From the NCBI GenBank assembly GCA_009829735.1, contig CM020618.1, positions 1,677,547 through 1,741,546 on the forward strand: 64,000 nucleotides of DNA, given 5' to 3'. Source of the DNA: Pyropia yezoensis (Eukaryota; Rhodophyta; Bangiophyceae; Bangiales; Bangiaceae). The translations under genes and the position numbers were made by a program. Under the pieces are notes generated by a model. That model was not told where the DNA came from. It ran no database searches and was given only the letters and a program-made list of their open reading frames with translations. Below, one piece after another: positions 16,357-55,229 of this stretch; the first letter of the stretch is position 1; every line of letters starts with the position of its first letter.

Positions 16357-16358
16357 AC

Positions 16359-17525: not shown

Positions 17526-20266
17526 CTAGGCGAACGTGTGAGGCGTCGTCGCCGTCTGACCGCCAGTCGCCATACGCATTCGGTACTTGGTGCACATTTG
17601 CACATCGTAGGCCGACCCATAGTCAACAAGCACTTCGTCCCCAGCCTTGATCTCTCGCGTCGCTTGAATCAGGAATGCACAAGGTGAGACAAGCTCTTCA
17701 GGCCGTGTCACCGTGTCTGCAACTTGGCACAGGCAGGCGTTGGCACTCCGTTCTTGCGGCAGCGGGGGGAGACACGACGACGTTGCAACGCTCGTCGTCG
17801 GCTCAGCGCCCGACACCGCCGCGCTCATACGCACAGCGCTGTCGACGCCTGCAGACACAACGGCACGACCACCGTGCGTGCCAATACTCCCGTCCGCAGA
17901 GACGATGGCCGCCTCCACTGGCGACAGGCCCCTGTGGTCGTTAACATACCCAGCGACACAGGTTGGCGCCGGCTTCAACCACACACCCGACTGGCGGTGG
18001 GTACGCCAATCACCAGCGCCTCCGCGGACGGGCGCTGCTGTCGTGGCCCACTTGGTCGCGTCCACGCGGACCTTCAGCGCACGCGAATGGAAATCGGCTT
18101 GTGTTGTACCCAGCACACCCAAGACGTCCCCGGCGTATCGGCAGCTCAAACTGTCCCGCATCCTGGACAGGTCGCGGTAGATAATGGCGCCATAAAACGG
18201 GGCCACCATTGCCCCAGCGGAAGTATCTCTCAGGGCAAAAATGCCGAGACCACCTGCGCCCCCGTTTACAGAGGAGGGGGCGACGGCAACGCCGAGGCTG
18301 GCAGCTTCGGCACACCTCATCGCGTCAAGGTCCTCCACCATGAGACGGCACCGCAGCTCCAGCGGCCAGCGGTCGACGGCAACACCTCGGAGAGCCAAAA
18401 TCTGAGGCATTGACACGCGCTCGCCGTCCGACACCATGCCGGCGTGCGGCACTGCCCACCTGGAGGCGAGCCAGGAAATGAGAACGTCGGGCAGAGCACA
18501 GTGTGCAGGCTGGCCGGCCGGGACCTGCATGTCGAGTTGGTACGCCACCGGCCGGGGGAGACTGGGAAACGGCGCCGTGTAGGACGACCCATACGCGTAC
18601 GCCGACTGAGACAGGTATTGAATGCCTGACGCAATGTCCTCCCGCAAGGAAGCCTCCGCCAGAACCCGACAAGCCCGAACGATCCGGCCGTCGACATGCT
18701 CCGCCAGACCACCTTGCAGCACGGCGCTGACAAATGCGCGGAGGAGCCGTCCTCGAGAGGCAGCAATGCACGCCGCGTCAGAGTCACCCACAAGGGCCCG
18801 TCGATATTGGCCCGCGCGCATGGTCAGGGCCGCGACTGCAACGGATAGAGTACCACAAAAGGGGTCCGCCACCAAGTCCAGCGGGTGGGAGAAGCGAGCG
18901 ATCAACTCTTGCAGCAGCGCCAACCCCTTTTGCTCGGGTCTCAGGAAGCCGCCGGACCGGGCCGAAGGATTTCGCAGCACCACTTCTGCTCGGGGAAGAC
19001 TGCGAACATTGTTGACGATGTTGGTCGAGGCGGCGTAGTCGGACGCAACGTAGCCAAATCCCCGGTAAGACACCCGCGCATGCGCTTCACTGGGGGAGAG
19101 CCCACGGCGGGTGGCGTGCACAACAATCTCTGCCTTGCTCGTCAGCACCACAGAGCTGAACGTCTGACCAAAAGAAAAGGAATGAGGATCCTTGATCACG
19201 AGCAGGGGCACGCCGTCCACAATGAAAGCGGGCGACTGAGACTTGGGCGCGCCGGCAGCGGAACCCCCCCCATCCCTTGACCGCTTCGAGCCCCGCCGGG
19301 CGCCGTGTTCGCCTGCATCTTGCCAATCATCTTGGCATGCCCGCAGCGCATCCACCCACAAAGACCATTGCTGGAAGGAGCAAAAGATGAGGACATGGCC
19401 GCCTGGGCGAACAAGGTCGCGAAAGAGCCGCACAGAGAAAGTGTAGTCCTCTGCTCCCATGACATCGTACTCAGAGTGCTTGGCGTTCTGCTCCCGGCGT
19501 GTGTTGTACGGAGGGTCGGTCAGTACAAGCTGCACCTGTCCCACGATGCCCTTGTGCTCAGCTTCAGATGCACTGCCGCCCCGATGCGCCTCATGCGCTT
19601 TCAGGAAGTCTTTGTAGTCCCCGCTGTGCGTCCACACCACCTTGCTGAGAGCAGCGCTGACGACACCTTGCGCCTCCGCCACTGACAGGCCTTCCTGAGC
19701 AGAACGCACCAAAGAAGACGACGCAGCAGCCTTCTTAGACGATGGGGTAGGAGAGGTAGACCGAGCCAGAGGAGAACCGACAGGGGCAGCCCCGCCCGCT
19801 GCGGCCGTGCGACGACCGACACTCCCGCCGCTGCCGCCAGCTGCAGACAGCATAACACCGCCCAGAGCAGGAAGGAAGCCCCGACGACGGGCGGGGATCA
19901 GAGGGTGCACCGATGCCAAAGGCACAACAGGACCTGCAGCAGCAAGCACGCTCCCTGCGTACGCAGTGTCAATGCCACTCCCCGGTTGCCGCCTATATCC
20001 AACCCCTTCCGCTGACGAACACGACGCATACAGATCCGATATGACCGCCGATAATGAGATTCTTCGAAGCGGCGAGTCGGGCACAACCTGACCCGCCGGG
20101 GAGGTACCGCCGCTACTCCACGTGCGGTCGCTCCTGCTGCCGCCGCCACTCGACGAACTGCTGCCGCTGCCGCTGCTGCGCGTCCTGCTGCTGTCACCGA
20201 GAACGCTTTGCCAGTCCTCTACTGTTTCCCCTTGGCTTGAACGAGTGCCGCCCCCCCCAGAGCTCC

Positions 20267-20302
<36 letters not shown>

Positions 20303-21914
20303 TGCTGCGGTCGTCACTTTTGCTGCTGTCGCTTCCATCGCTGACCTCGCTGCTGCTGCTGCTGTCCCAAAACGGGAGCTTCCCCCCGTCCTCAGCAGCG
20401 TCCTCGGGCGGAGCGAGGGCATTCAGGCCAGCAGAAATAGCCGCCAGAATCGGGGGAACTCCATCTGCACAGCACAAAGAGCGCGGCAAGCGGTAGTGCG
20501 CCAAAGACAGACACGCAGCTTGCGGATGTGCTGGGAGCGCACTTCCGCTACTGCTTCCAGCAACTCGACCGCGCCGCCGCGTGTTGGCGTGCAGAGACTT
20601 CAACCGGTACCGCGGCTCTGTCGAAGGGTGCAAGGCAAAGCCCAAGATGTCGACACGAGATGTGACAGTCTCCAAGTGGGATAGAAAAAGCTTGGACGCC
20701 AGACGAAGCTGCTCATCCGCAACTGGCGAACGCCCCAGCGCTTCTGGATCCACACTGCCGCGAACAGCACTCGGAACAAGGCCGTGAAAAAGATCTCGAC
20801 TCTGAGCAAGGGGCGCCAGCCGCCCAATACCCCCCTCCACGAGCGCCTCGTACTTGAGACGCGAAGGAGACCACAGAATGTACGGACCCAGCATCTCCTC
20901 CGCAGACGAGAAGCGCGCGCGACGCGCAAGCGCGTCCCAAGCCCGCACTAGACTCCGAACAGCACGTGCAACAACCTCCGAGATGGCGTGCGCACGTACG
21001 AGCGCCGAAGAAGTACCCCCCGACGTGTCCTGGACTCCTTGATGGCGCGGTGGCTGCCTACTTTGTCGACCATGCAGCTCCCGCAGCTGCTCTTGGCGCG
21101 CCGTCGTGTGCTGCATCGGCGTCCCGCCGGTCAGCTCAATCACGCGAGATAGCCAAAGCACCTGCTCAAAGGGCGTGAGGGAAGAAGCACGATGCCGCCT
21201 TGCCCCGACGCGCCGACGCGCCGAACGATGCACGGAAGGTAGAGCGGGTGCCAGCACGTCGCCAAGCCATGATTGCCCGACATCAGCGTCGAACCGCATG
21301 CCAGACATGGACTCCATGGCACAGATCACAGCGGTCGCACCCGGAGAGCGCCCGGTCAGCGGTAAGCAGCCACGGCTACGGCTGACGGCATCTTCGAGAT
21401 CCGCAAGTTGTTGCCACCGACCGGTCCAAGCGAGCAGCAGCTGCCAAACGCGATAGTCGGCCGCCGGCGGAGGCCACGAGAGGTACGCATAGCCTGCATC
21501 TACCACATCGGTTGATAAAACGCCAGCAACGCGCTTTGCAACCTCTTCCACGTCTCGCGAACGGTAGTGCATGAGCGCGCAGACGGCTGCCGATAAATCG
21601 GCCACGAAGGGGAGCTCCAGCAACGCGACGTCATCATCGGGTTCGCCGCCAGAGGCAGCCGCATCGCGAGCCCAAGCGCACACCGCATCCCAAGAGCAAC
21701 GCACAGCCCCAGCACGCTGACCGACCGAACCCACTGCACGACCCGTCTGCAGCAAAGTCGACAGGTACGCGTCACGTGCGTCACCAACAGCGAACAACAA
21801 GGAAACCTGCAGCTCGACCCCAGACTCCACATCGTTCGGAGACAAGCTGAACCGCCTCGCGCACGCTGCCACTGCCTGCACGGCCCGAGACGTGCGATCC
21901 GACGGAGAAGCCAT
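17526..21914 (-). CDS. DNA amino-methyltransferase fused to a SET domain
   Basis: The ATG at 21914 (MASPSDRTSRA) gives about 1462 residues to TAG at 17526; the open frame extends 39 codons upstream, but that part is Cys/Leu-rich and unlike the rest. The first ~750 residues are unassigned, with a polySer/Arg tract. DPPY lies near residues 800-803 and DPFCGTLSVAVAAL near 1017-1030. This motif IV before motif I order is typical of beta-class N4-cytosine/N6-adenine DNA methyltransferases. From about 1222 to 1440 there is a SET domain: GLGIFAL, GYVNDHRG and DEVLVDYGSAYD. The protein may methylate both DNA and a protein such as a histone, using S-adenosylmethionine, in the nucleus. Palindromic iterons lie upstream. 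Domain calls are by motif. The target base and SET activity are unknown. Confidence 0.85.
20265..20365 (-). repeat. CTG/AGC triplet-rich tract coding polySer
   Basis: A run of CTG triplets (AGC on the coding strand) with a second cluster after an interruption encodes Ser repeats inside the methyltransferase-SET protein. It is a length-variable microsatellite in coding sequence. Confidence 0.8.
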
Positions 21915-22910
21915 GATGGATGTACAAAGCGACAGGAACAGACAACACCACAAGAAGCACCGGGAATCAAAGATCCACTGCAGCCGCCGCGGGCACATAC
22001 AACGCGGCAGAAAAAGCCAGAGCGCGCACAAACAACACTGTAAACATCCGACCGCGGTGAGCGATACACCACGACCGATTTCACGTCATAAAAACAAGCC
22101 AGTTCAACGCCCAAAGTACTTGCAACTATGAACCTACCATTACGGAACTCAATATGCGTTCTAAAATGGAATGCAACTTGTGAGTCGACAAAAAAGTCCA
22201 AAAACGAAGTGGTGGAGTGAACAAGATAAGACAACCAGGCTTCCTCGGCTGAGAAACCAACACAATAAGGCATCCATTCCGGGGATGACAGGGACTCTTT
22301 GCAAACAACTGAATCGCAGGTCAGGCAGATGGCGCAAATCACTGAGAAGTAGGTGATTATAGTACTATAAACACTCACATTCAAGGAATTGACAAGCGTG
22401 ATAAATACAAAACACAAATTCGAAACACTTTACAAGGTCCATATGGAGTCTGACTGTCTGTTCCCCGCCAATCCTAGCCGACCAATCGCTTTTGGTACTG
22501 CAAGCACTCACTGGGTCAGCCAAGGGGACATCCGGACATTTGACATGATGGCGATGGTGCGGTCAGAGGTAAACGATTGCTGTGAGGGAACGAAGGTGCG
22601 TCTGTTGGTTGTCCTGTAGACCTTCATCCGCTCGCAGGCAGACTAAACGTAGGCTGATGAAACCGCGCGATGTGTGCACACAACGCCAAGTACACTCACG
22701 CAGCCAACCGCCAAACCAAACAAGAATCATGTCAAGCAAATCGAAAGCAAAGATCACAAATACCAGAAAACCAAGTACACTCATAGCGTTGTGAGCTACA
22801 AGATTTTGCACAAGAGGCGTATGGGTAACATAACCACATTAAGAAACACGCGTGTAGGCGTCGTCGTGGGTTTGATCCCCAGTGGATTCACTTTCGCCCG
22901 TCCCGTGCCT
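21915..22910. promoter_or_regulatory. 5' region of the methyltransferase-SET gene, with a partial palindrome
   Basis: No gene is seen. At 22357-22370 the perfect core TTATAGTACTATAA occurs, followed by ACACTCAC as in the full palindromes, but the left arm is degenerate. This is the nearest palindrome copy to the ATG at 21914, about 440 bp away. No clear TATA box was identified. Confidence 0.5.
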
Positions 22911-23216
22911 GGATCCGCGTGGCTCACGTGGATCTGAGCACCTTCGTCGTCTACAGGCCTGACCCAAGTGAGTGTTTATAGTACTATAAACACTCACTCA
23001 AGATTGCCACGTGTTGCCTTGATCCACGTGGCTCACGTGGATCTCAGCACCTTGGTCGTTTACAGGCCTGACCCAAGTGAGTGTTTATAGTACTATAAAC
23101 ACTCACTCAAGACTGCCACGTGTTGCCTTGATCCACGTGGCGCACGTGGATCTGAGCACCTCGGTCGTCTACAGGCCTTACCCAAGTGAGTGTTTATAGT
23201 ACTATAAACACTGACT
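22911..23216. repeat. Three 109-bp iterons, each with two palindromes
   Basis: A 32-bp palindrome centred on TTATAGTACTATAA lies at 22967-22998, 23076-23107 and 23185-23216, spaced exactly 109 bp. The first two are perfect; the third has a small change in its right arm. Each is preceded by a 23-bp palindrome with CACGTG half-sites around a 3-base spacer at 22912-22934, 23021-23043 and 23130-23152, also 109 bp apart. The intervening bases (CTACAGGCCT, ACCCAAG) are conserved too. The array lies between the 3' end of the ParB-oxygenase gene and the 5' end of the methyltransferase-SET gene. Protein-binding sites are a reasonable inference. Confidence 0.9.
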
Positions 23217-23408
23217 TGGTCGACCTGGGTGATGTCGTTCCATTTGGTATGTCTGACTCGCTACGTCCAAGTGCATTTTGGTCAATGCAACAGTCACCGA
23301 CAGAGCGCTCGAGAATCCTGCAACAATGCCATCATCATGCAAAGCAGATACGCATACATGCCCAAGGCTCATTGTGCCCCACAATCTCTTACTCGCGCAT
23401 CTTCCTCT

Positions 23409-23945
23409 TCACTCTTCGATCACCATTCCTCCAGAATTCACTCTAGTTGACCCGGCAGCCTCCGTGGCTTCGCCACCACCCCGCGCCGGCGGAAGAAAGG
23501 TAAAGACGTCGGGCGCCGGATAGATGGCGTCCTGAATGGTGTCACCAACTTTCCGCACGTACATGTGTGCACGGATGTTGCGCCGGTAGTAACTACGAAC
23601 CTTCTTGACGCCGCAGAGACCATGCCGGTAGTGATCGTCGACATCAGCAGCACCAGCGTGCACCAGGTCACCACGGACAATCAGGACCGAGTAGGGAGGA
23701 ATTTGCAGCAGACGAGCCGGAGGCGGAACCGACTTGCCCGCCATGCCATCACGAAGTCGACAAGCATGGTTATGGCTGTCCGGCCACACCCAAAGTGGAA
23801 ACCCGTCTTCCGCCGACGCCATGACAAAGTACGACGGTGCCGCATGAGATCCTGCATCCCGGCTGGACGAAGCAGGTGATTGGTTTTCAAACGACGCCGC
23901 AAGATGCTGCGCCGCCAAGTGCTCAGGAACTTGTGTCAGCGGAGG
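23409..23945 (-). CDS. 3' part of the ParB/2OG-oxygenase gene (separated by gypsy C)
   Basis: From the retrotransposon junction the minus strand stays open for 178 codons to TGA at 23409. It carries the second half of a 2-oxoglutarate/Fe(II) oxygenase fold: SYFVMASAEDGFPLWVWPDSH, then VRGDLVHAG with the distal metal-binding His, then IRAHMYV with a candidate Arg for 2-oxoglutarate. The region aligns with the end of the paralogue at 58822 (FFIMASGRDSFVLAVWPGS, CRSDLVHAGCG, IRLHMYL). It continues exactly in frame from the segment ending at 36558 if the element and one target duplication copy are discounted, giving 1687 residues overall. Confidence 0.85.
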   Translation of the reverse strand, partial: PPLTQVPEHLAAQHLAASFENQSPASSSRDAGSHAAPSYFVMASAEDGFPLWVWPDSHNHACRLRDGMAGKSVPPPARLLQIPPYSVLIVRGDLVHAGAADVDDHYRHGLCGVKKVRSYYRRNIRAHMYVRKVGDTIQDAIYPAPDVFTFLPPARGGGEATEAAGSTRVNSGGMVIEE

Positions 23946-23950
23946 AGTAC

Positions 23951-24524
23951 TGTAGCATCCCTGGCCCCGACTTGGCGCCGACCCGGGACTGCAACCAGAG
24001 GGCACCAGGTGCCAGAACACGCCCGCCGTGTGGCGATGGTTGGCGGCCGTGGCCCGTGCCCGGCACTGGGATGCGGTGGACTACGCTATCCACACGCGAG
24101 AGGGGGATTTCTGATGTGTTTTTGCATATTTGTGAGGGACTTGATTTGAGAGAATTTGAGTGTGAGATTAGTGAGTGGGAATAGAATTAGTAGTGATAGT
24201 GGCCCCCGACCTGACGAGGTTAGACTCGGGTCGGGGCCACTCGGGGTTATGGGGGGGGGCTACCGGGCCAACGTGCCGGGGTTCCCCCAGATGCACGTTA
24301 AGAGGGACAGCGAGGCGCCCTCGGCCCGCGCCCTCAGGGAAAAAGACAACTGCGCGTTTGCTTTCCTCTTCCCCGTGTGCACTACCGTGCGTATCTGTTT
24401 GCCCTGCAAGCAGGCACGTGAGGCAACAGGCATACCATTCTCGTAGTTCCCCTTTCTGCGTTACCTGTCCCTTTCCCCCGAGGGATATTGACACGTGTCT
24501 GAGAGGATCGAGTTTTATACCACA
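23951..24524 (+). repeat. 5' LTR of element C
   Basis: Begins TGTAGCATCC and ends ATACCACA. Length matches the copy at 35984-36557, and translated frames through both copies are the same. The preceding five bases are AGTAC. Confidence 0.95.
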
Positions 24525-24528
24525 TATT

Positions 24529-24546
24529 TGGTGGAGCAGCAGGGGA
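24529..24546 (+). promoter_or_regulatory. Primer-binding site of element C
   Basis: TGGTGGAGCAGCAGGGGA, four bases after the LTR, identical to the sites of elements A and B. It should pair with the 3' end of a host tRNA used to prime minus-strand synthesis. The tRNA was not identified. Confidence 0.85.
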
Positions 24547-24733
24547 TTGGAGTGTTTGAGAAGAGACATTTGGGAGCAGCGGTTGCGTTGTTCCTATTCT
24601 GTCTTTTTCTGTGGTTTGGGAATTATTTGCACCCGTTCACGGGAACCCCATTCCTGGCTCTCCAACCCCTCTCTTGTGGTCTTGCGATCTTTGGACACGC
24701 AGGTAACTGGACTGTGGCTGTCAAGAGACCAAC

Positions 24734-26494
24734 ATGGCTACCCTCCCTGGCACGACGGTGCCCGAAGGGGTAGACCCCGCGTCCCTTGACGCATCCCTGG
24801 TCACCGCGGGGGACGGTGCCCAACCCGGCGTTCTCCCTACGGGTGAAGCAGACCTGGGCGTGACATCCGGTAGTGGACTGGAGTCTACAGGCGGCCAAGT
24901 ACCGCCTGCTCCCGTTCCTCCGGCTGTTCCTCCTGTGGGAGCCACCCCGGGGTCAACGGCGTTTGAGTCCGCTCGCAGCAGACGTCTCCCTCCTGTCGGT
25001 TCTACTCTTCAACCTCCAGGGATAGCCCCTGGTGTGTTTACTCCTGGACCCACACATGGCAGCTGGGTGTATACACCTCTTCCTGTGGGCACTAGCAGTG
25101 CCAGAGGCACCGCTATGACTGGTTCTACGGGTCTTCCTGAGACTTCGACTCCTGGGACCGGCCAAGCTTTTCCTCCCCTTGCGTCCTATGGGGCGGGGAG
25201 CTCCAAGACCGGTGACCGGAGCAGCCGTAGGCGTCGGCGTCGTCGCCGCCGCTCTAGCACCAGCGAGACCAGTTCCTCCAGCTCTGAGGAGGGATATGAC
25301 TGGGATGCATCTCCCGGTCCTACCCGGCGCAGGCTAGTCGAGTTCGACTTCCCTGCCCACCAAGTGGGAGATGCCACCCTGAACAAGGTCACGTATTGGG
25401 GTAACTACCGGCTGGAGAACCAAGACCAAGGTTACACCCGGAAGATGGCCAAGAAGATGGCATCCCTGAACCGGCGAATGCAGCCGAGCTTTGGGGGACA
25501 TCCTAAGTTTTCCGGGAAGAGACCGGCGCTTATCTTTGCCTTCCTGCGCCGGTTTGTCAAGGCATGCAATGACAACGATGTGTCCGAGGGCAAGGCTCTC
25601 TATCTCCTGGTTAACTTCATGACCGGAGAAGCGGAACAGCGGTTTGCACAGGTTCTACCAGACTCTGCCGGGCACATTGTTGGACGTACCGTCGCGAGTT
25701 ATCCGGAGGCGGTCAACTGGCTCCTGTCCAACTACGCAGACGCGGACTCCCTGCGTAAGGCAGTCGGTAGGCTGAACCGGGCAACCATGGAGAGACAAGA
25801 GACTCCAGAGGCGTTCGCCCGTCGTGTCCGGGAGATGAGCGATGCTTGTGGCAACGTTTACCCTGAGGACAGGCTCAAGATGATCTTCTCGGAGGGGCTT
25901 CCTGAATATCTTCAAGTGGATGCGGAGAACTACAACCAGGAACATCAAGAACATACCTTCCAGCAGTTGATGGCCTACACCCAGGGCAAGCACCGGCAAG
26001 CCAAGGCCCTCCAGGCTCCTATGGTATCAACCGCCAAGCCGTTGTCGCGAGTTCGTCCCGGACCCGACAAGTATAAGGGAGGTGATAACCCTGTACCGGT
26101 ACTCGCAGTTGGCGAGGCCTCACCCATGGAGTCAAGGGACAAGTGGGGCGGCTTCGTTTCTAAGGAGCAACCTTCCCTGGTCGCCCCCAAGCAGATCAGG
26201 AACCAGCGGTTCCGGTCTTGCTGGCTGTGCCAGAAGGAGGATCATATGTCCTACCAGTGCCCGACCATTCCCGAGGATCTCCAGGAGAAACTCAAGCGTC
26301 AAGGACTGGTGTTTGCAAAGGCGGTCAACTGGGCTGACCGGCGGGCACCCTCCAAGATGGACAAGGCACAGGTACATGCCATCCGAGTGGCAACCTTACA
26401 GAGCATCACGGAGGCTCTGGCAAGGGAAGCTCCTACGGACTTTGACCTGGAGACCGAAACCTCTAAGGACTCCTCGGAGCCGGGAAACGAGTAG
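24734..26494 (+). CDS. gag: Gag of element C
   Basis: The ATG at 24734 gives 586 residues. The N-terminal ~150 are Pro/Gly/Thr-rich, followed by a basic run of Arg and a Ser-rich patch. A capsid-like region (FAFLRRFVKACNDNDVSEG, then WLLSNYADADSLRKAVGRL) follows. Near the end a CCHC zinc knuckle is present, CWLCQKEDHMSYQC, for binding element RNA. The frame ends at TAG 26492-26494, only two codons after a candidate -1 slippery heptamer. It forms the cytoplasmic virus-like particle. The other gags in the window (1-1418 and 5490-6767) share the capsid motif. Confidence 0.95.
   Translation: MATLPGTTVPEGVDPASLDASLVTAGDGAQPGVLPTGEADLGVTSGSGLESTGGQVPPAPVPPAVPPVGATPGSTAFESARSRRLPPVGSTLQPPGIAPGVFTPGPTHGSWVYTPLPVGTSSARGTAMTGSTGLPETSTPGTGQAFPPLASYGAGSSKTGDRSSRRRRRRRRRSSTSETSSSSSEEGYDWDASPGPTRRRLVEFDFPAHQVGDATLNKVTYWGNYRLENQDQGYTRKMAKKMASLNRRMQPSFGGHPKFSGKRPALIFAFLRRFVKACNDNDVSEGKALYLLVNFMTGEAEQRFAQVLPDSAGHIVGRTVASYPEAVNWLLSNYADADSLRKAVGRLNRATMERQETPEAFARRVREMSDACGNVYPEDRLKMIFSEGLPEYLQVDAENYNQEHQEHTFQQLMAYTQGKHRQAKALQAPMVSTAKPLSRVRPGPDKYKGGDNPVPVLAVGEASPMESRDKWGGFVSKEQPSLVAPKQIRNQRFRSCWLCQKEDHMSYQCPTIPEDLQEKLKRQGLVFAKAVNWADRRAPSKMDKAQVHAIRVATLQSITEALAREAPTDFDLETETSKDSSEPGNE
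26482..26488 (+). promoter_or_regulatory. Candidate -1 ribosomal frameshift site (GGGAAAC)
   Basis: The heptamer lies in the gag frame as G GGA AAC, the X XXY YYZ arrangement needed for a -1 slip, and the gag stop follows one codon later. The -1 frame is open from here into the protease, with no stop between 26488 and the DTGAG motif at 26725. A downstream stimulatory RNA structure was not assessed. Confidence 0.65.
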
Positions 26495-29013: not shown

Positions 29014-29486
29014 CCATTCACCGGATGCTGGAGGCACAATTGACGGACCCTCAATGCTTGGAGCTTCGCCACCAAATGGACCTGAACCGGAACAGTCGCT
29101 TCTCCGAGTCTACAGACGGACTCCTGGTACGGGTGTCACCCTTCGATGGGGCAACTCAAGTCTACGTACCCCGGAGCCTACGGACTGACATCCTACGCCT
29201 GGAGCACTCGTCTCCCCAGGCCGGGCATCCTGGTATCAATCGGATGTATGCTTCCATGAGACGACATTATTACTGGGAAACCATGGCCAGTGACGTCCAT
29301 AAGTGCCTGGAGGCTTGTATTTCTTGTGCAAGGAACCGGTTGTCCCAGAGGAAGAAGACTTCTAAGCTACGCCTATTCCCTGCGGCGGAGCCCTTTGCAA
29401 GCTTAAGCATGGACATCCTGGGGCCCCTACCTGAGACCTCCAGTGGCAACATATACCTGCTCATCATTTGTGACCGGTTCTCCAAG
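28929..29486 (+). CDS. pol: Integrase N-terminal part, first contig copy
   Basis: Open from just after the TAG at 28926 to the N gap. It contains the integrase zinc-binding region, with HPGINRMYASMRRHYYW followed by CLEACISC (HHCC), and the first catalytic Asp region SMDILGPLPE. The same bases recur at 31883-32440, after which the rest of integrase follows. Confidence 0.85.
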
Positions 29487-29986
29487 NNNNNNNNNNNNNN
29501 NNNNNNNNNNNNNNNNNNNNNNNNNNNNNNNNNNNNNNNNNNNNNNNNNNNNNNNNNNNNNNNNNNNNNNNNNNNNNNNNNNNNNNNNNNNNNNNNNNNN
29601 NNNNNNNNNNNNNNNNNNNNNNNNNNNNNNNNNNNNNNNNNNNNNNNNNNNNNNNNNNNNNNNNNNNNNNNNNNNNNNNNNNNNNNNNNNNNNNNNNNNN
29701 NNNNNNNNNNNNNNNNNNNNNNNNNNNNNNNNNNNNNNNNNNNNNNNNNNNNNNNNNNNNNNNNNNNNNNNNNNNNNNNNNNNNNNNNNNNNNNNNNNNN
29801 NNNNNNNNNNNNNNNNNNNNNNNNNNNNNNNNNNNNNNNNNNNNNNNNNNNNNNNNNNNNNNNNNNNNNNNNNNNNNNNNNNNNNNNNNNNNNNNNNNNN
29901 NNNNNNNNNNNNNNNNNNNNNNNNNNNNNNNNNNNNNNNNNNNNNNNNNNNNNNNNNNNNNNNNNNNNNNNNNNNNNNNNNNNNNN
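29487..29986. other. Assembly gap (500 N)
   Basis: A 500-N spacer of conventional length. The 2455 bp before it (27032-29486) recur right after it (29987-32440), indicating unmerged contig ends. Confidence 1.
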
Positions 29987-35980: not shown

Positions 35981-35983
35981 CTA

Positions 35984-41084: not shown

Positions 41085-41289
41085 CGGCGCAGAGAGAGTC
41101 TGCCGCGCGCGCGCGGCGCGAATTCGGCAAGAGCAGCCGCGATCTCCCACCAAACCGGCTCCCCAGCGTTCGCCGCCCACCCTGCAGCCAGCCTGGCTCG
41201 CGCAAAAAAGGGCACAACCACTCGGGCGCTGCGCCCTATCGCGGACGCCAGCCACCTCCACGCCCAACTACAGCAGGCCTCGTCACCGC

Positions 41290-41830: not shown

Positions 41831-42337
41831 ACCAGCCGCACAGAGATCGCGGGGTGAAACAGCTGCAGAGGGGACAAACGCATGCACGACAGCATGCAAC
41901 GCAGACTCCAAGACGGCAGAGCACGGGGGCACCACGCGACTCATCGCCGAAGGAAAAAGAGTCAAGGCAGTTTCCAGTACTGTAAACGTTCCGTCGGCGA
42001 CTGACCCCCCCCAAGAAGATTTGTTCGTAATTTCATACAATCGAAACCATTCACAAGGAACAAATGGACGACACAGCATACCAAATGGCGCGTACAGCCA
42101 CATACCACACCCCTCCTCACGCGGCTCTGGATAATCGCAGCTCAGAGAGGCCGCCTCAATGTCGTCACGAGTATGCCCTGGGCAGAAAAAGGAGCGTTCC
42201 GCTGACCAAAGTCTGGAAATTTGCTGCGCATTTGACACTTGAGACCTGAATACTACCAATTCGAAATCTTGGTACAACAAGTACGATTAAATATATTTTC
42301 GAACTGAATCGACTGTCAGGACTCGGACGCCGACCCG

Positions 42338-42369
42338 AGTGAGCGTTTATAGTACTATAAACACTCACT
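42338..42369. repeat. 32-bp palindrome in the helicase/ParB-oxygenase spacer
   Basis: Same palindrome as in the 22967-23216 iterons, with core TTATAGTACTATAA and arms AGTGAGcG / CACTCACT (one mismatch). A single copy lies 86 bp from the helicase stop codon and about 1.25 kb upstream of the ParB-oxygenase ATG. Confidence 0.9.
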
Positions 42370-42454
42370 TGAGATGCCCATCCTGGGTCCACCTGTGTGC
42401 ATGCCCCAGGTACCGATGATACATTGCGGCGACATTCTTTAACGTGCACGAACA

Positions 42455-45400: not shown

Positions 45401-45915
45401 GCCGGTGCTGCTCGTACTGATACAGCTCGTACTGCTGCTTGGCGGCTTCGTGCTGGTGCTCGCTTGTACAGCAGCGGTTTGCTGCCGCTGCGGCCTCAAT
45501 GTACGCGACGCAGCAGAAAGGTGGCACTCTTGCCGCCCCCCGTCGGAAGAACCGTCAGCTGCGTCACAGCGTCCACGGGCGCACAATGTACGAACTGTCG
45601 CTAGGCGCTGCGTGGGGGACTTGAAGCCACCAGGCCCGTATACCTGCCTGGCTGCAGCATCCACGGCAGCCTCGGCTACCGACAAGGACATACGGAATGC
45701 GCGCGCAGCCCAACGTAGGGGCCGAAGCCACAGCACAGGCGGGTGCGACGGCCAGTGTGGCGGCACTCGATACTGCGCCGCCAACGCCACCTGCTGGGAC
45801 GGCACCACCCCCGTCTGCTGTGCCAGATGCTCCACCAAGGGATGACGGGAGATGGCCATTGTCAGTGGCGGCGGCGGCGGAGGCGTGTTGGGCTGCGCGG
45901 CCCAATGGTGGGGGC
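42455..45915 (-). CDS. 3' half of the recombinase-helicase gene, first contig copy
   Basis: The minus strand carries the helicase motifs in two or more frames because of indels, then an unbroken C-terminal frame (44224-42455) with motifs V and VI (GISTGTDFTNMSWG, QASGRLSR) and a Cys-rich tail (CAACCALR, CTGCGLPP, then a region resembling the C-terminal domain of large fungal RecQ-type helicases) ending TAG at 42455. The 5' part is lost in the N gap. It duplicates 47650-51103 and is probably the same gene seen in another contig. It supplies the correct C-terminus, which is frameshifted in the second copy. Confidence 0.8.
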
Positions 45916-46415
45916 NNNNNNNNNNNNNNNNNNNNNNNNNNNNNNNNNNNNNNNNNNNNNNNNNNNNNNNNNNNNNNNNNNNNNNNNNNNNNNNNNNNNN
46001 NNNNNNNNNNNNNNNNNNNNNNNNNNNNNNNNNNNNNNNNNNNNNNNNNNNNNNNNNNNNNNNNNNNNNNNNNNNNNNNNNNNNNNNNNNNNNNNNNNNN
46101 NNNNNNNNNNNNNNNNNNNNNNNNNNNNNNNNNNNNNNNNNNNNNNNNNNNNNNNNNNNNNNNNNNNNNNNNNNNNNNNNNNNNNNNNNNNNNNNNNNNN
46201 NNNNNNNNNNNNNNNNNNNNNNNNNNNNNNNNNNNNNNNNNNNNNNNNNNNNNNNNNNNNNNNNNNNNNNNNNNNNNNNNNNNNNNNNNNNNNNNNNNNN
46301 NNNNNNNNNNNNNNNNNNNNNNNNNNNNNNNNNNNNNNNNNNNNNNNNNNNNNNNNNNNNNNNNNNNNNNNNNNNNNNNNNNNNNNNNNNNNNNNNNNNN
46401 NNNNNNNNNNNNNNN
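45916..46415. other. Assembly gap (500 N)
   Basis: A 500-N spacer whose two flanks, 41223-45915 and 46416-51103, are near-identical. Confidence 1.
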
Positions 46416-49400
46416 CGGGCGCTGCGCCCTATCGCGGACGCCAGCCACCTCCACGCCCAACTACAGCAGGCCTCGTCACCGCAAAAGTACGCCCAAAGGC
46501 ACCCACCACCAACACGCCCGGCGGACCCACACGGCTGCCTGCGATGCCACCTGCAACCCCACAGCAGTACCACCCACGCCCCCGCCGAGCTGCACCGCTG
46601 CACTCGGCCCCGCGAGGCAGACGGCCAAGCACCACCCTCAGGCCGCAGACGCAGGCACGGACCCACCGCCACCTGGCGGGCGTCAGAGCCACCTACGCCC
46701 AAACACACACCTCTCACCCACACGCACAACAGACACACGGCTGCCAGCGATGCCCCCAGGCACCGCACAGCAGCACCACACAGGCCCCCGCCGAGCTGCA
46801 CCGCTGCACTCGCGGCCCCGCGAGGCAGACGGCCAAAGCACCACCCTGAGGCCGCAGACGCAAGCACGGACCCACCGCCACCTGGCGGGCGTCAGAGCCA
46901 CCTACGCCCAAACACACAGCTCTCACCCACACGAGCAACAGACGCACGGCTGCCAGCGATGCCCCCAGGCACCGCTCAGCAGCACCACTCACGCCCGCGC
47001 CGCGAGCGAACACACAGAAGCGCACACACCAGCCGCACAGAGATCGGGGTGAAACAGCTGCAGAGGGGACAAACGCATGCACGACAGCATGCAACGCAGA
47101 CTCCAAGACGGCAGAGCACGGGGGCACCACGCGACTCATCGCCGAAGGAAAAAGAGTCAAGGCAGTTTCCAGTACTGTAAACGTTCCGTCGGCGACTGAC
47201 CCCCCCCAAGAAGATTTGTTCGTAATTTCATACAATCGAAACCATTCACAAGGAACAAATGGACGACACAGCATACCAAATGGCGCGTACAGCCACATAC
47301 CACACCCCTCCTCACGCGGCTCTGGATAATCGCAGCTCAGAGAGGCCGCCTCAATGTCGTCACGAGTATGCCCTGGGCAGAAAAAGGAGCGTTCCGCTGA
47401 CCAAAGTCTGGAAATTTGCTGCGCATTTGACACTTGAGACCTGAATACTACCAATTCGAAATCTTGGTACAACAAGTACGATTAAATATATTTTCGAACT
47501 GAATCGACTGTCAGGACTCGGACGCCGACCCGAGTGAGCGTTTATAGTACTATAAACACTCACTTGAGATGCCCATCCTGGGTCCACCTGTGTGCATGCC
47601 CCAGGTACCGATGATACATTGCGGCGACATTCTTTAACGTGCACGAACACTAGAGAGGCAACACGCCAAAGCCTTTGCAAGCACTGGCGCGAAGAGCACA
47701 ACATTTGGCAACGTCGTGCCAGACGTCAACCATTGAGCAAACGCTCTTGAAGACACACCGTCAAGAGAGTCGCCCCAGTCGAGGATGTTCCGTGGAGGGA
47801 GACGTACGCAGCGCCTGACCGCGTCTTCTGCCCCCCAGCGCCTCTCTGGCCACGTCCAAGCAGTATGGCATCGCTGCTGAGAGCAACAGAAAAGAGCGGC
47901 CCGTTGCATTGCCATGCCCGTACGAGCACGCGCCATTTGAAGCATTGCCACGCGGATGGTGAACGCCCATGGGCACTTGAGATTGCCGCGTTGTCCTTGA
48001 GCGTGTAGACCGAAAAACCCCAACAGATGGGATGACCACACTCGGTGGGAGCCCACAACCCGTACACGATCCTTCAGGCTCGCCTTCCTCTGGGTACACA
48101 GGAATCCACGGTGGTGGCACGTTCCTGCACTCGGCACTGGGCGTAGAGCACACGTTTTCCAATGGCCGCTCCGCCGATGGCCGCCGACACGTACCGAGAC
48201 GTCCGCAAGCACGAGCAGCAAATGTTCTTGAAACAGGCGGCGGGCGTATGCCGCCGGGCAGGAACCGAAGGAACGCGAAGAGCGCAGCATGCTGCACAAG
48301 GCCGAACACGATCCGCCTGGCGGCTGTCCATAATCGCCGTAGCGGCCCTCCTACCAAACTCCAACGCTTGCACGGTAGCATCCCGTACTTGCAAATTGGC
48401 AACATGCAGTGTGCCCAGGGTGCCCGGAGCAACAGCCGCCACGGACGGCCTAGTCGCCAAAGCCGGTGCACCAAGACTGGGGCGGGGCCCGTTGCTGTGG
48501 CGGGCACCTATGCCAACGACGGGTGGTCGTTCAACGACGAGGCGCCCCTGCACCAGTTGAGTCTGCACCAACGCACTATGCTCCGGCCCAGCCATCGTTC
48601 CGCCTGCCGACGTAGCTCGCCCACTGCTGTGCGCCAGTGTCACAGCCTGCCGACCACCGCTCGACTCAGGCGGAGGCGCCTGCCCACGCCCGGTCGTCGC
48701 CGACCATGACGCAGCACCCATTCGTTGACGCACTTGGCGGGAGGGGTTTGAAGCTGTCCCGAGTACGTTAACCCCCGCTTCTCTGGGGTTGGGGCTGCCT
48801 CTTGTACGCGCCACAAAGAGGATTCTGGCAGACTTCCGGCAGCGTCGGCAGCAGGTGAAAGGGGGGAAGAAGTGACATGAGATGGTGGAACGGTCCGATA
48901 AGCCGCAGCTCCCGGAGGAGACGCGTGCGAGTTTCGGGAGCGTTGTACGACTTTCGCTACGGTCGCAGTAGCCAAGCCGGCCAGAGGCCTGTTGCACGCG
49001 TGTGTACACACGTCACAGAGCGCAAAGCCGCCTTGAATGCAAGACACGGCGTCCGCTGCTTGCACACCGTCCATCACCTCGTCGAGGTACACGCGGCGAC
49101 ATGGCAACGGGCCGCTATCCACCTCCAGGGCCGCCCAGCGGTCAAAGTCACCCAGCTGATCCAGCCCAATGACGGCCTCTCGGGCGTCGTGCTCGTGCAG
49201 CATGTCAGAGTACCCGTCGGGGTTCCACACAACGGCAGTGCCCCCTTCGCGGGGGCTCCGCGAGAGACGCCCTGACGCTTGTACCAGCGTCATGAGGTTT
49301 CGAGCCCCAAGGAAGAAGCCCCAACTCATGTTGGTAAAGTCAGTGCCCGTTGAAATACCAGGGGAACCGACAACGACAATGACGCCGACACCGCCGCGCT

Positions 49401-51103
49401 TGCGTTGAAGCTCAGCCACAATCCACGGCGGTGACCCACTGCCTGCCGCATCGCCAGGCCCCAAGGAACCGGCCTCGGCTCGGCGACTGTCCCTCCCACC
49501 TCTGAAAGTCGACACGGACGACGCGGCTTGGACAACGTGGACAGTAGAAATGTCGCCATTGACAATCTCAGGACGTGCAGGCGCTTGCCGCTCAAGGGAC
49601 TCGTGGGCTGCTCCACGAGCTGTCGCTGCCGCGACGGAGCCAACGTCGTTCTCCGCGATGCGTGCCTCCGCACTTGATCCAGGCGCGCCACCAACCACCA
49701 ACTGGGCGCCGTCCACTCGAGAATGAAAGCGCAACACGTCCACATCCTGCAACTCGGGACCATCGGCCATTGCAAGTGCAATGGAGAGCGCGTCAGAGAT
49801 GCCCTCCACATCCAAGACAGTCTCGAGAAATACGCCCACAACGGCACACCGGCTGTGCAGGTCCCCGCTGGGCGCACGCATGGTGCTTATCTGCTCGAGG
49901 ACGCGGTCAGCAACGGCCATGTGGAGGGGCGATACCTCATAGGGCGTCGAAGACGTCCCTCCGCCACGCTTTCTAAAGGGCACCGGAGCCGGCTCAACAC
50001 AGTAGCGCAGGTTGGCCCGCCGCGTTGACGGAGGTCGTAGAATTGCCACAGGGCGGGTGGGAGTCCAACCGGTGGCGGCAAGCAGCGGCTGAACCCACCG
50101 CACAGGAGCGGTGGCGGTCAGGAGTATGAGAGGACACGGCAGGGTGGCCAATACGTCCTTGACAAACACCAAAAGGTGCCGAAACGAGCCCCACAGACCG
50201 AGAAGGTGCACCTCATCAATCACCACTCGCCCCAACCGACCTTGCGCGTCGAGCCCGCGGATGAGAGCCACAAACTGTGCTCGGTTACGCACAATGACGG
50301 CGGCATCGGCCACCACGACCGCCACGTCTGGCGCCAAGCGCTGCGCCCATGACCCGGCGCGGACGGGCATGCGGGCGGCAGCGTCGAGGATTGTGGCGCT
50401 GACCGCTCGCGTGGTTGTCAAGACAATCGTCACGGTGGGACACCACAAGGAAGCCCGTCGGGAAAAGGCAACTGCGGCTGCCGCCCCGCGGCTACCAATC
50501 GAGGACGCGGTGGCACCACCAGCACCAGCTCCTGCACGACCGCAAAAGTCAGAGCTTCCGCCGTTGAAATGGTCTGCTGCCCCTACCGACCGCCGGTGCT
50601 GCTCGTACTGATACAGCTCGTACTGCTGCTTGGCGGCTTCGTGCTGGTGCTCGGCTTGTACAGCAGCGTTTGCTGCCGCTGCGGCCTCAATGTACGCGAC
50701 GAGCAGAAAGGTGGCACTCTTGCCGCCCCCCGTCGGAAGAACCGTCAGCTGCGTCACAGCGTCACGGGCGCACAATGTACGAACTGTCGCTAGGCGCTGC
50801 GTGGGGGACTTGAAGCCACCAGGCCCGTATACCTGCCTGGCTGCAGCATCCACGGCAGCCTCGGCTACCGACAAGGACATACGGAATGCGCGGCAGCCCA
50901 ACGTAGGGGCCGAAGCCACAGCACAGGCGGGTGCGACGGCCAGTGTGGCGGCACTCGATACTGCGCCGCCAACGCCACCTGCTGGGACGGCACCACCCCC
51001 GTCTGCTGTGCCAGATGCTCCACCAAGGGATGACGGGAGATGGCCATTGTCAGTGGCGGCGGCGGCGGAGGCGTGTTGGGCTGCGCGGCCCAATGGTGGG
51101 GGC
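46416..51103. repeat. Second copy of 41223-45915 (likely assembly duplicate)
   Basis: About 4.69 kb repeated in direct orientation on either side of the gap. It includes the 206-bp repeats, the palindrome (47533-47564) and the helicase 3' half. The differences noticed are single-base length changes in short homopolymers, for example GGCGGGGAGG versus GGCGGGAGG at 43541/48738. This is the pattern of low-quality contig ends rather than evolution. Confidence 0.85.
47533..47564. repeat. 32-bp palindrome, second contig copy
   Basis: Counterpart of 42338-42369 in the duplicated segment. Confidence 0.85.
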
Positions 51104-54100
51104 GGTGGCCTGAATACCGGCGACAGTCCAGAATCCTTTGACGGATGAAGCGGGTGTCGCAGACCGTCCTGATAATGGCGTGACTCGACGCCCATAGAGG
51201 TGTGCCACCACGAGCTAGCTCGACGAAACCAGAAAACGCTTGCCGCCGTCAGCTCATTGACCGCCAGGTCCTCCAGGCCAGCATACCGCTGCGTGGCGGT
51301 TGTGGATGTGTGGCCTGCCTGAGCGTCGAGCACTCTCCCAATGTCGGCGACAACGCCATCCGTGCCGCCTCCTGGCCCGTCCGCACCAATGTCGTGGCTC
51401 AGGATGTCGTAGCCGGTTGCCATCTTGGTTATGCCTGCGAGAAACTGTCGCAAGACTCGGACGCCCACATACGAGCCCGACTGCTCCCGAAGACCGTGCA
51501 GCAAGCCCGACTCTAGCGCCTTGTTCAGCACATAGGGGGACAGCTGCACACCACGGGCGTCACGAAAGAGGAGAGCCCGGTCCACCTCCTCCGCGTGACC
51601 GCAGGCACTGCTCACGACGCCCCTGACGGCGGCGGCGGATGCGCCGCCAAGCCCGCCCAGGCTGTCGCCGTTGTTAGAGACTCGGGTGGCGCGAGACACG
51701 TAGGCTTGCAGGGGGTCCAGAAACACGACGACCAGCAAAATAAGGGAGGAAGTCTTGGCGGCCATCCAGCGAAGTACGGGGCGGCCCCTGCCTTCAGCAC
51801 GGGCCTGACCCTTGCTGTACGTCAGCACCGTGAATACGCTCCCAGCGTGGACAAAAAGGCTTCTACGGGCACGCGCGGTAGAGGCGACCACCTTGAGCGC
51901 CGCGTCCTCGGTTTGACGGCCCGGCGAGCCGCCGGCGACGTGCATGGCAGCCCACAATAGGGCGCGCAGCCGCTCAGCCTTTGCTTCCCAGCGCGCAATG
52001 GCGCCGCGCGCCACCTCTGCGGGCGGCGGCGCGGTGGCGCCGGAGCTGGCTGCAGGACCCTGCACGGGCCGCACCGGGCAGGCAGCCGACTCGAGAGCGC
52101 CAGATGCCACAAAGTGCGACAGCCACCGCCGTACAAGCTGCCGGTTTTGGGGCAGCTGAAGAAAGCCTACGCCCGGCGCGTGCGCCGATGGGCGGTCCAC
52201 CAGGCGGATGGCGTCCGCCCAAAAGCCACTCCCCGCAGGGTCGTACCCGCCAGTGAGCTCCCGGAAGAGGGAAAAGATATCGGCGTGAAGGCTCTCTAGG
52301 CGGCGGCCGAGCTCCCGGGTGCTCATGTGCAGCTGCGCTCCCAACAGGGTGCCGCAAACGGGGCGCCCTTGAGCCGGTGACCCCACCGTGACAGGCGGCG
52401 CATGCGACGGGTCGTCACACGGGAGAAAGACGGGCGCCATTGTTTCGCTCCGCCCAATGGCCTCGGCCATGCCCGACAGGTGGACAACGTAGGCGGCCGC
52501 CGTGACCCGGGAGGGGTCAGACTTGCGCGCAATCGCGGCAAACAATTCGTCAGACGACGCCTCGCTATGTGCCATGTAGTAGAGGGTGTTGGTGATCTTG
52601 ATGGAGAAGAGCAACGCAGCAGTCAGGCGCTGCGCGTTGCCGGCGTCGGCGTACCGGGCGGGGTCGGTGCGGCCAAGACCGAGGGAGCCGTACACCACCG
52701 CGAGAAAAGGCATCACCAGCTCGACGTCCGACTGGCCTTTGCAGGCTGGGTCGCCCCGCCGGGCACGGGGGTCGTACTCCTCGTGAAAGAGGGCGAGCAA
52801 AAGGGCCTGAAAGAGAGGCTCCGTGTCCGCGGCGGGGGAGGCCAAAGGGGAACCCAGCAAAGGCCCTTGGGCACCTTGACCTCTGTTACCGCCGCCAGCG
52901 GAGGCCACCTCTTGAGCGTCGAGCGCCACGGTGAGAGCGTCAGCGGCCGAGATAGATGAGGCCGATAACGTGGGGAGACGCCGGTCGTCTGCGACAATGT
53001 CTGCGGCGCAGCGGTGCCCGAGGCGCACAATGTCCATGACCACCAAGAGCAGGATGGACGTGTCCCGAACGTACCGCTGAACAGTGCCGGGCCGGAGGTT
53101 GACGTGGAAGGCTCGGCCGCTGTCGTCGCCGGCCGACGACAGACGCATTTTACGCGACAGCACCGAGGCGCTGCGGCTACGAAGAAACGCAATGGCAGCG
53201 TCCGTCGCACGCTGGATGCCGGCGCGGAGCGCCACGTACATGGGACGGTCGCAATGTTGACGACCCTCTGGGCCTTCCACATCGAGCAGCGAAAAGTGGT
53301 CCGCCACGGCAGCGGCGGTCCAGCCAAGGTCCTTGAGAGAGACGTCGTACCGCTCCATGTGCAGGAGGCCCCCCGCCTCGGTGTCATTGGTTGCCTCGGA
53401 TGAGGGCAGCCGTTCCAGCGGGGAGCCGAGAGTCGAAGACGCGCCAAGAAATGCATCCAAACACACACGCTGGTTGACTTGAGGGGGCGGCACCTGCGGT
53501 GTGTCGTCGACTCCAGAGGCGGCAGCGGCAGCGGCGGCGGCGTCGGCGGCGGCGTGGGGAGCAGGGGGCACGGGAGCGCCAAGGGCGGTGGGGAGCAGAG
53601 CACCTGCCGCGACTCGGACGTGCACCGCACCTGAGGCCGCTTGGGATGGCACCCCGCAAGAGACAGGGAAGAAGCACGTTTTGTTGCCCCGCTTGAGCGT
53701 CTGACCAGGCACAATGTAAAAGCGCTTGTTGCCGCACGCGTCGGTAGGGTCACTCGCGGATGCAGGCGACGCAGAGGACGGCCGCGGAGTTCCCGACGCC
53801 CTGCGGGTAACCGTCTTGTGCACGCCCTGTGCGCTCGGCGCCATCGAGCGGCAGGTGTAGCACGCGTGGAGCCCCGTACAAATGGAAAGGGCAGGAACCG
53901 CTGGTAGGTGAGCGGCGGCGGGGCCAGCGGGCCAGGCACGGAGGGAGTAGCGCTCTCTGAGCCCAACTTGGCCGCCAGTCGGCTCGACAGCCAGGGCTGC
54001 ACGCGCGGCGGCAATGCCCACCGTCTGAACACTGGCCAGGCGGGCGGCCACGCCGCTGTCCTCAGAACCAGTCGCCTGGGCGTCGGCGCAGCCCATCTTT

Positions 54101-54633
54101 TCCACAGCTGCCTTGTGCGGCCCACCGCGGACATGGTGACCAAGCAGGGCGCCGTCCAAAAACGTAGTGTCACACGGGATGCACACCACACTGTGGGCAT
54201 CAGACCAAATGTAAAAAAAATTTTCCGTGTCCGCGAGGTTGTAGGGGGCGTCGTACGCAGTGGACGTAGGAACACGCGTCGAGCCATCCTCCTCAGCATC
54301 AACGGGAGCACGAATAGGGGCGGCCGCCGTGGCAGGGCCACCACCGTCGGCGGTCAGCGCGGAGACAGGGACAGGGTCAGTGGCGACCACATCGGCTGCA
54401 GCTGAGGCAGGGGCACGGACAGTGGCCAGAGCGCCGACAGAGGTGGCACCCAGAGGACGCGCAAGAGAAAGGGCGACAGCCTGGGCTGAGACAGGCACAG
54501 CGCGCGGCGAGACAGGCGGAGGAGCGGAACGAAGTACAGCAACAGAAGAGGGGGCCGCCGCAGGGGCAGCCAGAGAAGCGACAGGCGAGCTGCCTTCCTC
54601 AGGGTCGGTGGAGTTCGGGACGGCTGTAGACAT
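47650..54633 (-). CDS. Zinc finger / tyrosine recombinase / RecQ-like helicase fusion
   Basis: The ATG at 54633 opens 1997 codons. A one-base loss near 48738 relative to the other contig copy then shifts the frame; with the copy-1 C-terminus the protein would have about 2.3 thousand residues. C151-C154-H166/H167-H173 form a zinc finger reminiscent of OrsD-type fingers. A tyrosine-recombinase-like C-terminal box follows: VRVLRQFL (Arg1062) and QAGHTSTTATQRYAG (His1108, candidate nucleophile Tyr1117). The superfamily 2 helicase has LPTGGGKS (Lys1305), IDEVHLLGLWG (Asp1473), LLTATAP, GISTGTDF and QASGRLSR (Gln1785). Likely nuclear, with ATP-driven DNA unwinding coupled to strand exchange or DNA binding. 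It resembles large fungal telomere-linked helicases. Catalytic competence of the recombinase part is unproven because the first catalytic Arg was not located. Confidence 0.8.
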
Positions 54634-55200: not shown

Positions 55201-55229
55201 GTCGTACTGTAAATAAGCCATGCGGTGCG

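Follow-up and report, generated by a model that had tools for sequence, protein, structure and literature searches.

Organization of the E1 element

The stretch of DNA analysed here (hereafter, the window) comprises 64,000 nucleotides of the genome of Pyropia yezoensis, the edible red seaweed nori, and corresponds to C1:1677547-1741546. It contains a copy of an element, E1, with three very large genes, which all lie on the minus strand and follow each other from the right end of the element leftwards: a recombinase-helicase gene (gene 1), a ParB-oxygenase gene (gene 2) and a methyltransferase-SET gene (gene 3). Transcription would therefore start near the right end. The three head-to-tail genes had been recognized in a preliminary description of this DNA and are indeed present, with gene 1 frameshifted in a duplicated contig end and gene 2 split by a gypsy retrotransposon. 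Copies and relatives at other loci reveal that E1 has a fixed right end, has been copied recently, has sister families and takes part in oriented chains of left-truncated elements; it is very probably a mobile multi-gene unit. E1 probably represents one family of a new type of large multi-gene mobile element in a red alga.

The element extends from about position 17075 (an equivalent position, which is visible in locus F, see below) to position 56873. Two contig ends in the window are doubled across gaps of 500 Ns: positions 41223-45915 correspond to 46416-51103 at 99.4% identity, and gypsy has its own duplicated contig end (27032-29486 and 29987-32440). After removal of gypsy and the duplicated contig ends, E1 has a size of at least about 22.0 kb, and the unit of roughly 19 kb that had been proposed was thus too short. 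The coordinates of all features are given in Table 1. The gypsy element is very young, encodes a chromodomain integrase (PF00385, PF00665) and occupies the same site in E1 copies on two scaffolds; its long terminal repeats (LTRs) in the window are identical across 574 aligned bases.

Table 1. Features of E1 and of the adjoining family 3 element, in window positions (ORF, open reading frame)
Feature	Position	Strand	Remarks
E1 copy	17171..56950	-	left limit behind a gap of 318 Ns; right terminus at 56873; terminal 79 bp repeated to 56950
Methyltransferase-SET gene (gene 3)	17526..22031	-	ORF of 1501 aa; likely first Met at 21914; DPPY at ~19517; weak C-terminal SET
Imperfect palindrome upstream of the methyltransferase-SET gene	22354..22373
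Array of ~3 x 109 bp	22906..23216		one palindrome per unit (22967, 23076, 23189)
ParB-oxygenase gene (gene 2), C-terminal part	23409..23942	-	SVLIVRGDLVHAG...R motif region
Gypsy LTR retrotransposon inside the ParB-oxygenase gene	23946..36557	+	5-bp target duplication AGTAC
ParB-oxygenase gene, N-terminal part	36558..41267	-	ParB-like box VDGAHR at ~39965; RPHTD at ~36653
Tandem repeat of ~206 bp upstream of the ParB-oxygenase gene	41294..41805		assembly copy at 46488-47002
Palindrome in the recombinase-helicase / ParB-oxygenase spacer	42338..42369		assembly copy at 47533-47564
Recombinase-helicase gene (gene 1)	42455..54633	-	spans a gap of 500 Ns and the assembly duplication
G-rich leader adjoining the right end	54634..56873		GC skew 0.476; 16 G-quadruplex patterns on the plus strand, 0 on the minus strand
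Right terminus, 89 bp ending GTAGAATATACATAGG	56785..56873	+	12 genome-wide matches at 11 loci
Family 3 array	57513..58450		palindromes of the GACGAGTAGYACTACTCGTC type with a period of 105 bp
Family 3 ParB-like ORF (61787-62674) and oxygenase-like ORF (58822-61767)	58822..62674	-

Copies of E1 and recent movement

The genome searched has three large scaffolds (C1 to C3) of 43.592, 34.332 and 29.385 Mb; the assembly publication gives 43.6, 34.3 and 29.4 Mb and describes PacBio contigs with an N50 of 340.8 kb, which were joined using Hi-C and BioNano data (PMC7423979). Genome-wide searches with DNA probes, the copy numbers of which are lower bounds, identified at least 13 copies of gene 1 at 97-100% identity and one at 70%, at least eight copies of gene 2 at 99-100% and two at 70-71%, and at least four copies of gene 3 at 100% and two at 77-78%, while the left limit of E1 is present in two loci. 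This fall in copy number from right to left fits a loss of left ends, and assembly gaps contribute to it. All close copies (97-100%) of the three genes lie within 1.75 Mb of scaffold ends, and for 10 of the 13 close copies of gene 1 the distance is at most 205 kb.

Colinear E1 copies, in which matching stretches reach 11.6 kb and identities range from 96 to 99.8%, are found at six loci, which were named A (C1:0.23 Mb), B (C1:0.76 Mb), C (C1:43.54 Mb), D (C2:4-37 kb), E (C2:34.18 Mb) and F (C3:29.32 Mb). Gene 2 is unsplit at the gypsy site in A, C and F, where AGTAC is present only once, and copy A retains an open frame of 1748 aa. The window and D carry gypsy at the same site of gene 2 (in D, the right junction is readable and the left one lies beyond a gap), and different sequences directly follow the right ends of these two copies. 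The common gypsy site and the different right flanks therefore indicate that an E1 that had recently received gypsy was subsequently copied and that its exact end was kept; independent insertion of gypsy at one site in the window and D is unlikely. The earlier proposal of a mobile or recently copied unit is thereby borne out. Whether the three genes are neighbours elsewhere had been set beforehand as a test of that proposal, and linked copies as well as sister families were found in the P. yezoensis genome.

The right end and head-to-tail chains

The right boundary of E1 is exact within a few bases at differing flanks. The 12 matches of the terminus include the 79-bp repeat in the window, a match in B that is interrupted by a gap, and a variant with 88% identity. 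The exact repetition of 79 bp of the terminus (56788-56950) was seen in the window copy only, among the copies read. In three families, one strand is rich in G over the 1.2 to 2.2 kb that precede the right end, with a skew of 0.37 to 0.51 and 16, 5 and 9 G-quadruplex patterns versus none on the other strand. E1 ends with ATAGG, and families 2 and 5 end with TTAGG, with small variation at L041 and L042. The host telomere unit, TTAGGG, was reported on the basis of reads and not of contigs (PMC3594237); the likeness of the TTAGG ends to this unit may be due to chance or may be meaningful, and it is not used as support here.

In total, 18 right-end junctions could be read, ten of which belong to E1 (window, D1, D2, E and L040 to L045), five to family 2 (two in F, L046, L047 and the 75% variant L048) and three to family 5 (C and two in D); the gap-cut junction in B was left out. 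Twelve of the 18 run into another, left-truncated element of the same kind. The E1 right end in the window is followed by family 3, the array of which begins 560 bp beyond the junction, D1 is followed by a family 4 methyltransferase, D2 by family 5 and L044 by the oxygenase gene, and the junctions at L040, L041 and L042 all lead into the E1 helicase gene at around 50041, with different junction bases. The remaining junctions lead into the left region of E1 (middle junction in F), the C-terminus of SET (left junction in F), gene 1 of family 2 (L047), E1 at position 18229 (C) and family 5 (D 37772). Both elements have the same orientation at all 12 junctions, which would have a probability of 1/4096 if orientation were random. 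Together with the falling copy numbers (13, 8, 4 and 2), the 12 junctions reveal head-to-tail chains in which one end is kept and the other one is truncated.

All five E1 left ends that can be read abut a right terminus (C, F and the three pieces at around 50041), three of which were found via that terminus. A natural left end of E1 was not seen, and a common left boundary is present only in family 6. By eye, no target pattern is common to the flanks of the right ends. The exact right end, the left truncation and the head-to-tail chains, like the family-specific arrays described below, go beyond what the preliminary description contained.

Sister families and relatives

Divergent families in the P. 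yezoensis genome keep the gene order of E1, and each of them has its own repeat arrays. In family 2 (L020), a gene 1 homologue with 43% identity and 1821 open codons is followed by ParB-like stretches; two separate stretches of this kind lie downstream of gene 1 (L020 6726-8584) and possibly represent two genes or a broken one. Family 3 (window, 57.5 to 62.7 kb) consists of ParB-like and oxygenase-like ORFs followed by an array, and no methyltransferase part lies between these ORFs and the right terminus of E1 in the window. Family 4 (L023) comprises the end of an oxygenase gene, an array and a methyltransferase ORF of 962 aa, the last part of which reads into the end of E1. Family 6 is located inside a chromosome (C1:18.99 and 40.06 Mb), and its spacing between the gene 2 and gene 3 probes is 8.57 to 8.58 kb, compared to about 8.0 kb in E1 without gypsy. 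Its two internal copies share a left boundary at different left flanks. The search for a right end of this family gave no result.

A further gene, gene X, is located at this common left boundary, to the left of the family 6 methyltransferase (L049 953-2150 and L050 953-2146), and has no significant Pfam match. Gene X yielded 39 scored candidates (44 matches including the two family 6 loci), which are dispersed over the three scaffolds, and the best matches outside the two family 6 loci are 69-77% identical. A probe for the SET part, used to see whether the gene X candidates carry it too, detected only the two known loci and one piece of 71 bp; the same probe missed E1.

Beyond these families, relatives were sought in three protein-database searches, in which scoring was limited to the about 8000 candidates with the most words in common with the query, so that relatives can escape. 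The P. yezoensis protein I4F81_005271 is identical across 66% of the queried methyltransferase-SET region. Five further methyltransferase homologues are 23-36% identical; SET profile matches were obtained for two of the four scanned, and one of the five has a ParB-like N-terminus (by eye). Relatives of the recombinase-helicase in other data are longer than 2000 aa and 38-39% and 88% identical.

Palindromes and repeat arrays

The palindrome AGTGAGTGTTTATAGTACTATAAACACTCACT is perfect across 32 bp at 22967-22998 and 23076-23107, shorter at 23189-23212, imperfect at 22354-22373 and present as a variant at 42338-42369, which is repeated at 47533 through the contig-end duplication. The same 32-bp palindrome had been reported for both spacers; this holds for the sites at 22967 and 23076, whereas the copy at 42338 is a variant. 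Genome-wide, 27 sites with at most two mismatches (two of them the assembly duplicate) were found versus none for a reversed control pattern, and the palindrome is therefore far from a chance occurrence. All 27 sites lie inside loci that align to E1 (A, B, the window, C, D, E and F), which ties the palindrome to the unit, as had been proposed. A palindrome dispersed over the genome without any link to the genes would have refuted the proposal, and this is not what the search showed.

The copies at C1:232 kb and C3:29.33 Mb have a fourth unit in the 109-bp array. In each of four families, gene 2 or what is left of it is accompanied by a distinct set of spaced repeats: E1 has GTTTATAGTACTATAAAC in 109-bp units, family 2 has GTTTCAAAGCAGTACAAAAC in 47-bp units in two stretches, family 3 has GACGAGTAGYACTACTCGTC in 105-bp units, with the same sites also found after a helicase end in locus C, and family 4 has GTTTCATAGCAGTACAAAAC in 45-bp units. 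An AGTAC core is common to many array units, and the cores are related across families 1 to 4. The change of the array sequence at a conserved place and with a conserved core suggests a putative binding site that co-evolves with its protein; the arrays may serve as operator or as partition sites.

Predicted products of the three genes

Gene 1 would encode a zinc-finger-like part (by eye), a candidate tyrosine recombinase, a RecQ-type helicase and a C-terminal domain. The ORF at 48640-54633 stops early because the second copy of the duplicated contig end contains a frameshift, and the C-terminal domain is in a single frame only in the first copy (42455-44224, with the conserved part reaching to about 42467). 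Tyrosine recombinases have the catalytic pattern R, K, HxxR, H/W, Y. The candidate residues of gene 1 are found in GRQTE, YSKG, RVLR, GHT and RYAG (51921-51291), with RxxR in the place of HxxR, and R906, K941, R1059, R1062, H1108 and Y1117 are invariant in all seven gene 1 sequences compared, which come from P. yezoensis and other data and include two pairs of close relatives. Searches of the region against Pfam, NCBIfam and PDB profiles did not reveal a recombinase of any family, an AlphaFold model based on the seven-sequence alignment reached a predicted local distance difference test (pLDDT) score of 36, and Foldseek returned no match for this model at E<=0.001; the recombinase is therefore a call at the level of motifs. 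The helicase, with Walker A at about 50739 and motif VI at about 49281, is assigned by a RecQ family match in the homologue P0014 and a RecQ5/BLM match of the gene 1 family profile. The helicase of P0014 (1109-1430) gives a stronger match to DpdF, from a bacterial system for 7-deazaguanine DNA modification (NCBIfam, 2.1e-17), than to RecQ (1.1e-8).

Gene 2 combines the ParB-like box VDGAHR with an oxygenase-like C-terminus, which contains RPHTD and DLVHAG. 2-oxoglutarate/Fe(II) oxygenases have an HxD...H motif and a double-stranded beta-helix fold, and the candidate motifs PHTD/PHID and DLVHAG of gene 2 are kept in two families. VDG(A/H)HR is found in families 1 and 3, and arrays adjoin the gene in families 1 to 3, as might be expected of a ParB/parS-like partition system. 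Profile searches gave no match to ParB for the ParB-like part and did not confirm the oxygenase, searches of PDB profiles yielded a single match at chance level for each of the two parts, and a fold model of the oxygenase region in three pieces had a pLDDT of 30.

The methyltransferase of gene 3 is detected by PF01555 (1.9e-10) and by DpnA/CcrM profiles, and DPPY is invariant in all six methyltransferase sequences, as in N6/N4 DNA methyltransferases. Matches to SET are below the curated cut-off both in the window (E 0.0066) and in relatives (P0006, 0.0044; P0009, 0.0038; family 6 end, 0.0028), and the profile scan gave no SET match for P0007 and P0010 (P0008 was left out). Pfam scans found no reverse transcriptase in the three E1 genes; the one in the window belongs to gypsy. 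Of the domains originally named, the RecQ-type helicase and the DPPY methyltransferase are thus firm predictions from profiles, SET stays below its cut-off, and the recombinase, ParB and oxygenase are candidates from motifs.

Comparison with known elements

The Terminons of bdelloid rotifers and HeT-A, TART and TAHRE of Drosophila are large or specialized elements that form head-to-tail arrays of one orientation linked to chromosome ends, and one of their ends is kept while the other is often truncated (PMC6431247, PMC5537684). E1 chains resemble these arrays in their uniform orientation and in having one end kept and the other truncated. However, the known elements use a reverse transcriptase, none of which was found in the three E1 genes, and the kept end of E1 is the promoter side of its genes. 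Furthermore, Terminons and HeT-A sit at chromosome ends, whereas the close copies of E1 lie near scaffold ends, at which no telomere repeats were found and the placement of which by Hi-C is uncertain.

Starships are giant elements that are classed by their tyrosine recombinase. The R..K..RxxR..GH..Y pattern of gene 1, which is invariant in seven sequences, might place E1 near Cryptons, Starships and DIRS elements, but E1 differs from them in the fusion of the recombinase-like part to a RecQ-type helicase, in having RxxR for HxxR and in the lack of a recombinase profile match. RecQ-type genes are also repeated near chromosome ends in the yeast Y' elements and as telomere-linked helicases of fungi, Agaricus ends among them. 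Likewise, the RecQ-type helicase of E1 is repeated near scaffold ends, which are putative chromosome ends; in contrast to these, it is fused to a recombinase-like domain and linked to two further genes and arrays, in a unit whose right end is exact. TET/JBP-linked and methyltransferase-carrying transposons are mobile units with DNA-modifying enzymes, as E1 appears to be, but E1 would fuse an N6/N4 DPPY methyltransferase to SET and an oxygenase-like to a ParB-like part. To our knowledge, no other element has this combination of fusions, and no description of such an element or combination was found in the openly licensed literature.

Proposed mechanism and alternative explanations

E1 might be a DNA-based counterpart of the telomere-adding retroelements. 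Where an older element has been eroded and its left end is exposed, a new copy would attach itself there by its right end. Chains would grow outward in this way, much like the chains of HeT-A/TART and Terminons at chromosome tips, except that the enzymes would act at the DNA level. The recombinase-like part and the RecQ-type helicase of gene 1 could act at the G-rich, TTAGG-like right end, weld it to eroded chromosome ends and drive leftward copying. The palindromic arrays could be bound by the ParB-like protein (or gene 1) and function as operators or in partition, and the methyltransferase-SET protein and the oxygenase could set or remove marks on the DNA and chromatin of the element itself. 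Growth of the chains by the right end is conceivable at somewhat less than even odds, the control of its own chromatin by the element is a tentative suggestion, and the model as a whole is given a probability of roughly 0.3.

Several observations speak against this model. Relatives with linked genes 2 and 3 are located in the interior of C1 (18.99 and 40.06 Mb), and a piece of gene 1 lies inside the chromosome at C2:9.50 Mb. Three copies, namely those at C2:4216 and C3:29187200 and the second one in F, point the wrong way with respect to their scaffold end. At six of the 18 junctions (E, L043, L045, L046, L048 and D 39660), no element was recognized in the flank, although the flank at D 39660 enters an LTR-element region after about 150 bp. 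Seven E1 left ends (window, A, B, two in D, E and the first copy in F) lie in gaps, and others are unread. A doubled TTAGGG or TTTAGGG unit was not found at the six scaffold ends read, nor were TTAGGG or TTTAGGG arrays found in the fetched loci. Scaffolding by Hi-C and BioNano of contigs with an N50 of 341 kb may shift repeat-rich contigs to the ends. Finally, the tyrosine recombinase, ParB fold and oxygenase are predictions from conserved motifs. We therefore only infer a link to telomeres, given the scaffold ends without telomere repeats, the possibly misleading Hi-C placement and the interior relatives. A restriction of the unit to chromosome ends was considered, but for the wider group the internal relatives speak against it.

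The near-identical copies close to scaffold ends and the RecQ-type helicase could also point to a subtelomeric gene block of the yeast Y' or fungal telomere-linked helicase type, which would spread by recombination or break-induced replication rather than by enzymes of its own, and recombination would likewise have carried the gypsy insertion along. Such a block is unlikely, since its right boundary would have to stay exact to a few bases while the flanks differ and the left ends vary; moreover, sister families of other sequence share fixed right ends and the same plan, and internal relatives exist. An ordinary multi-gene DNA transposon, which inserts into its own kind with an orientation preference and whose left remainders lie beyond the gaps, would be compatible with the seven hidden left ends and with family 6, where a common left boundary at different flanks means that a natural left end probably exists. 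However, the five readable E1 left ends abut another right terminus instead of the remainder of a target, no methyltransferase-SET relative was found at positions 1-17000 of the window, a possible place for the rest of family 3, and the flanks share no target pattern by eye, which makes nested insertion improbable.

Large viruses and plasmids often carry methyltransferase, SET, ParB-like and helicase genes, and the G-rich right end with its TTAGG-like termini could be the tip of a linear molecule. Under this view, E1 would be what remains, after capture at chromosome ends, of a linear plasmid or of a virus with a large DNA genome, and would correspond to its genome or to a part of it. This origin is quite improbable: a search of IMG/VR with the recombinase profile gave no match, the one with methyltransferase-SET gave at least three loci, in which only 46 to 88 residues around the methylase motifs are similar, and no capsid or polymerase gene was noticed in the unit, for which no dedicated search was made. 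Duplicated contig ends and Hi-C joins do occur in the assembly, and mis-joins could in principle imitate chains, but the junctions are free of Ns and occur at many loci, in three families, with different flanks and a consistent orientation, so that an assembly artefact is very improbable.

If the proposed model, a DNA-based counterpart of the telomere-adding retroelements, is correct, a large type of mobile element would be added to the red algae, and chains of one orientation with truncated ends, a pattern described to date chiefly for retroelements of chromosome tips, would also arise without an evident reverse transcriptase. The mobile unit would carry a DNA writer, a possible histone writer and a possible eraser. 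It would become testable whether the chromosome ends of nori are built or patched by such elements, and the exact end of E1 and its operator-like sites could be studied at the bench.

Sequences to the left of E1

An ORF for a hAT-type transposase (14011-16356, minus strand; Dimer_Tnp_hAT, 2.9e-14) is located directly to the left of E1. Next to it (16359-16852) lies a reversed LTR that belongs to the family of the gypsy element in gene 2. Further to the left, fragments of positions 2421-7257 are repeated at A, B, D, L049, L051 and L053 with about 79-88% identity and probably belong to an LTR retroelement.

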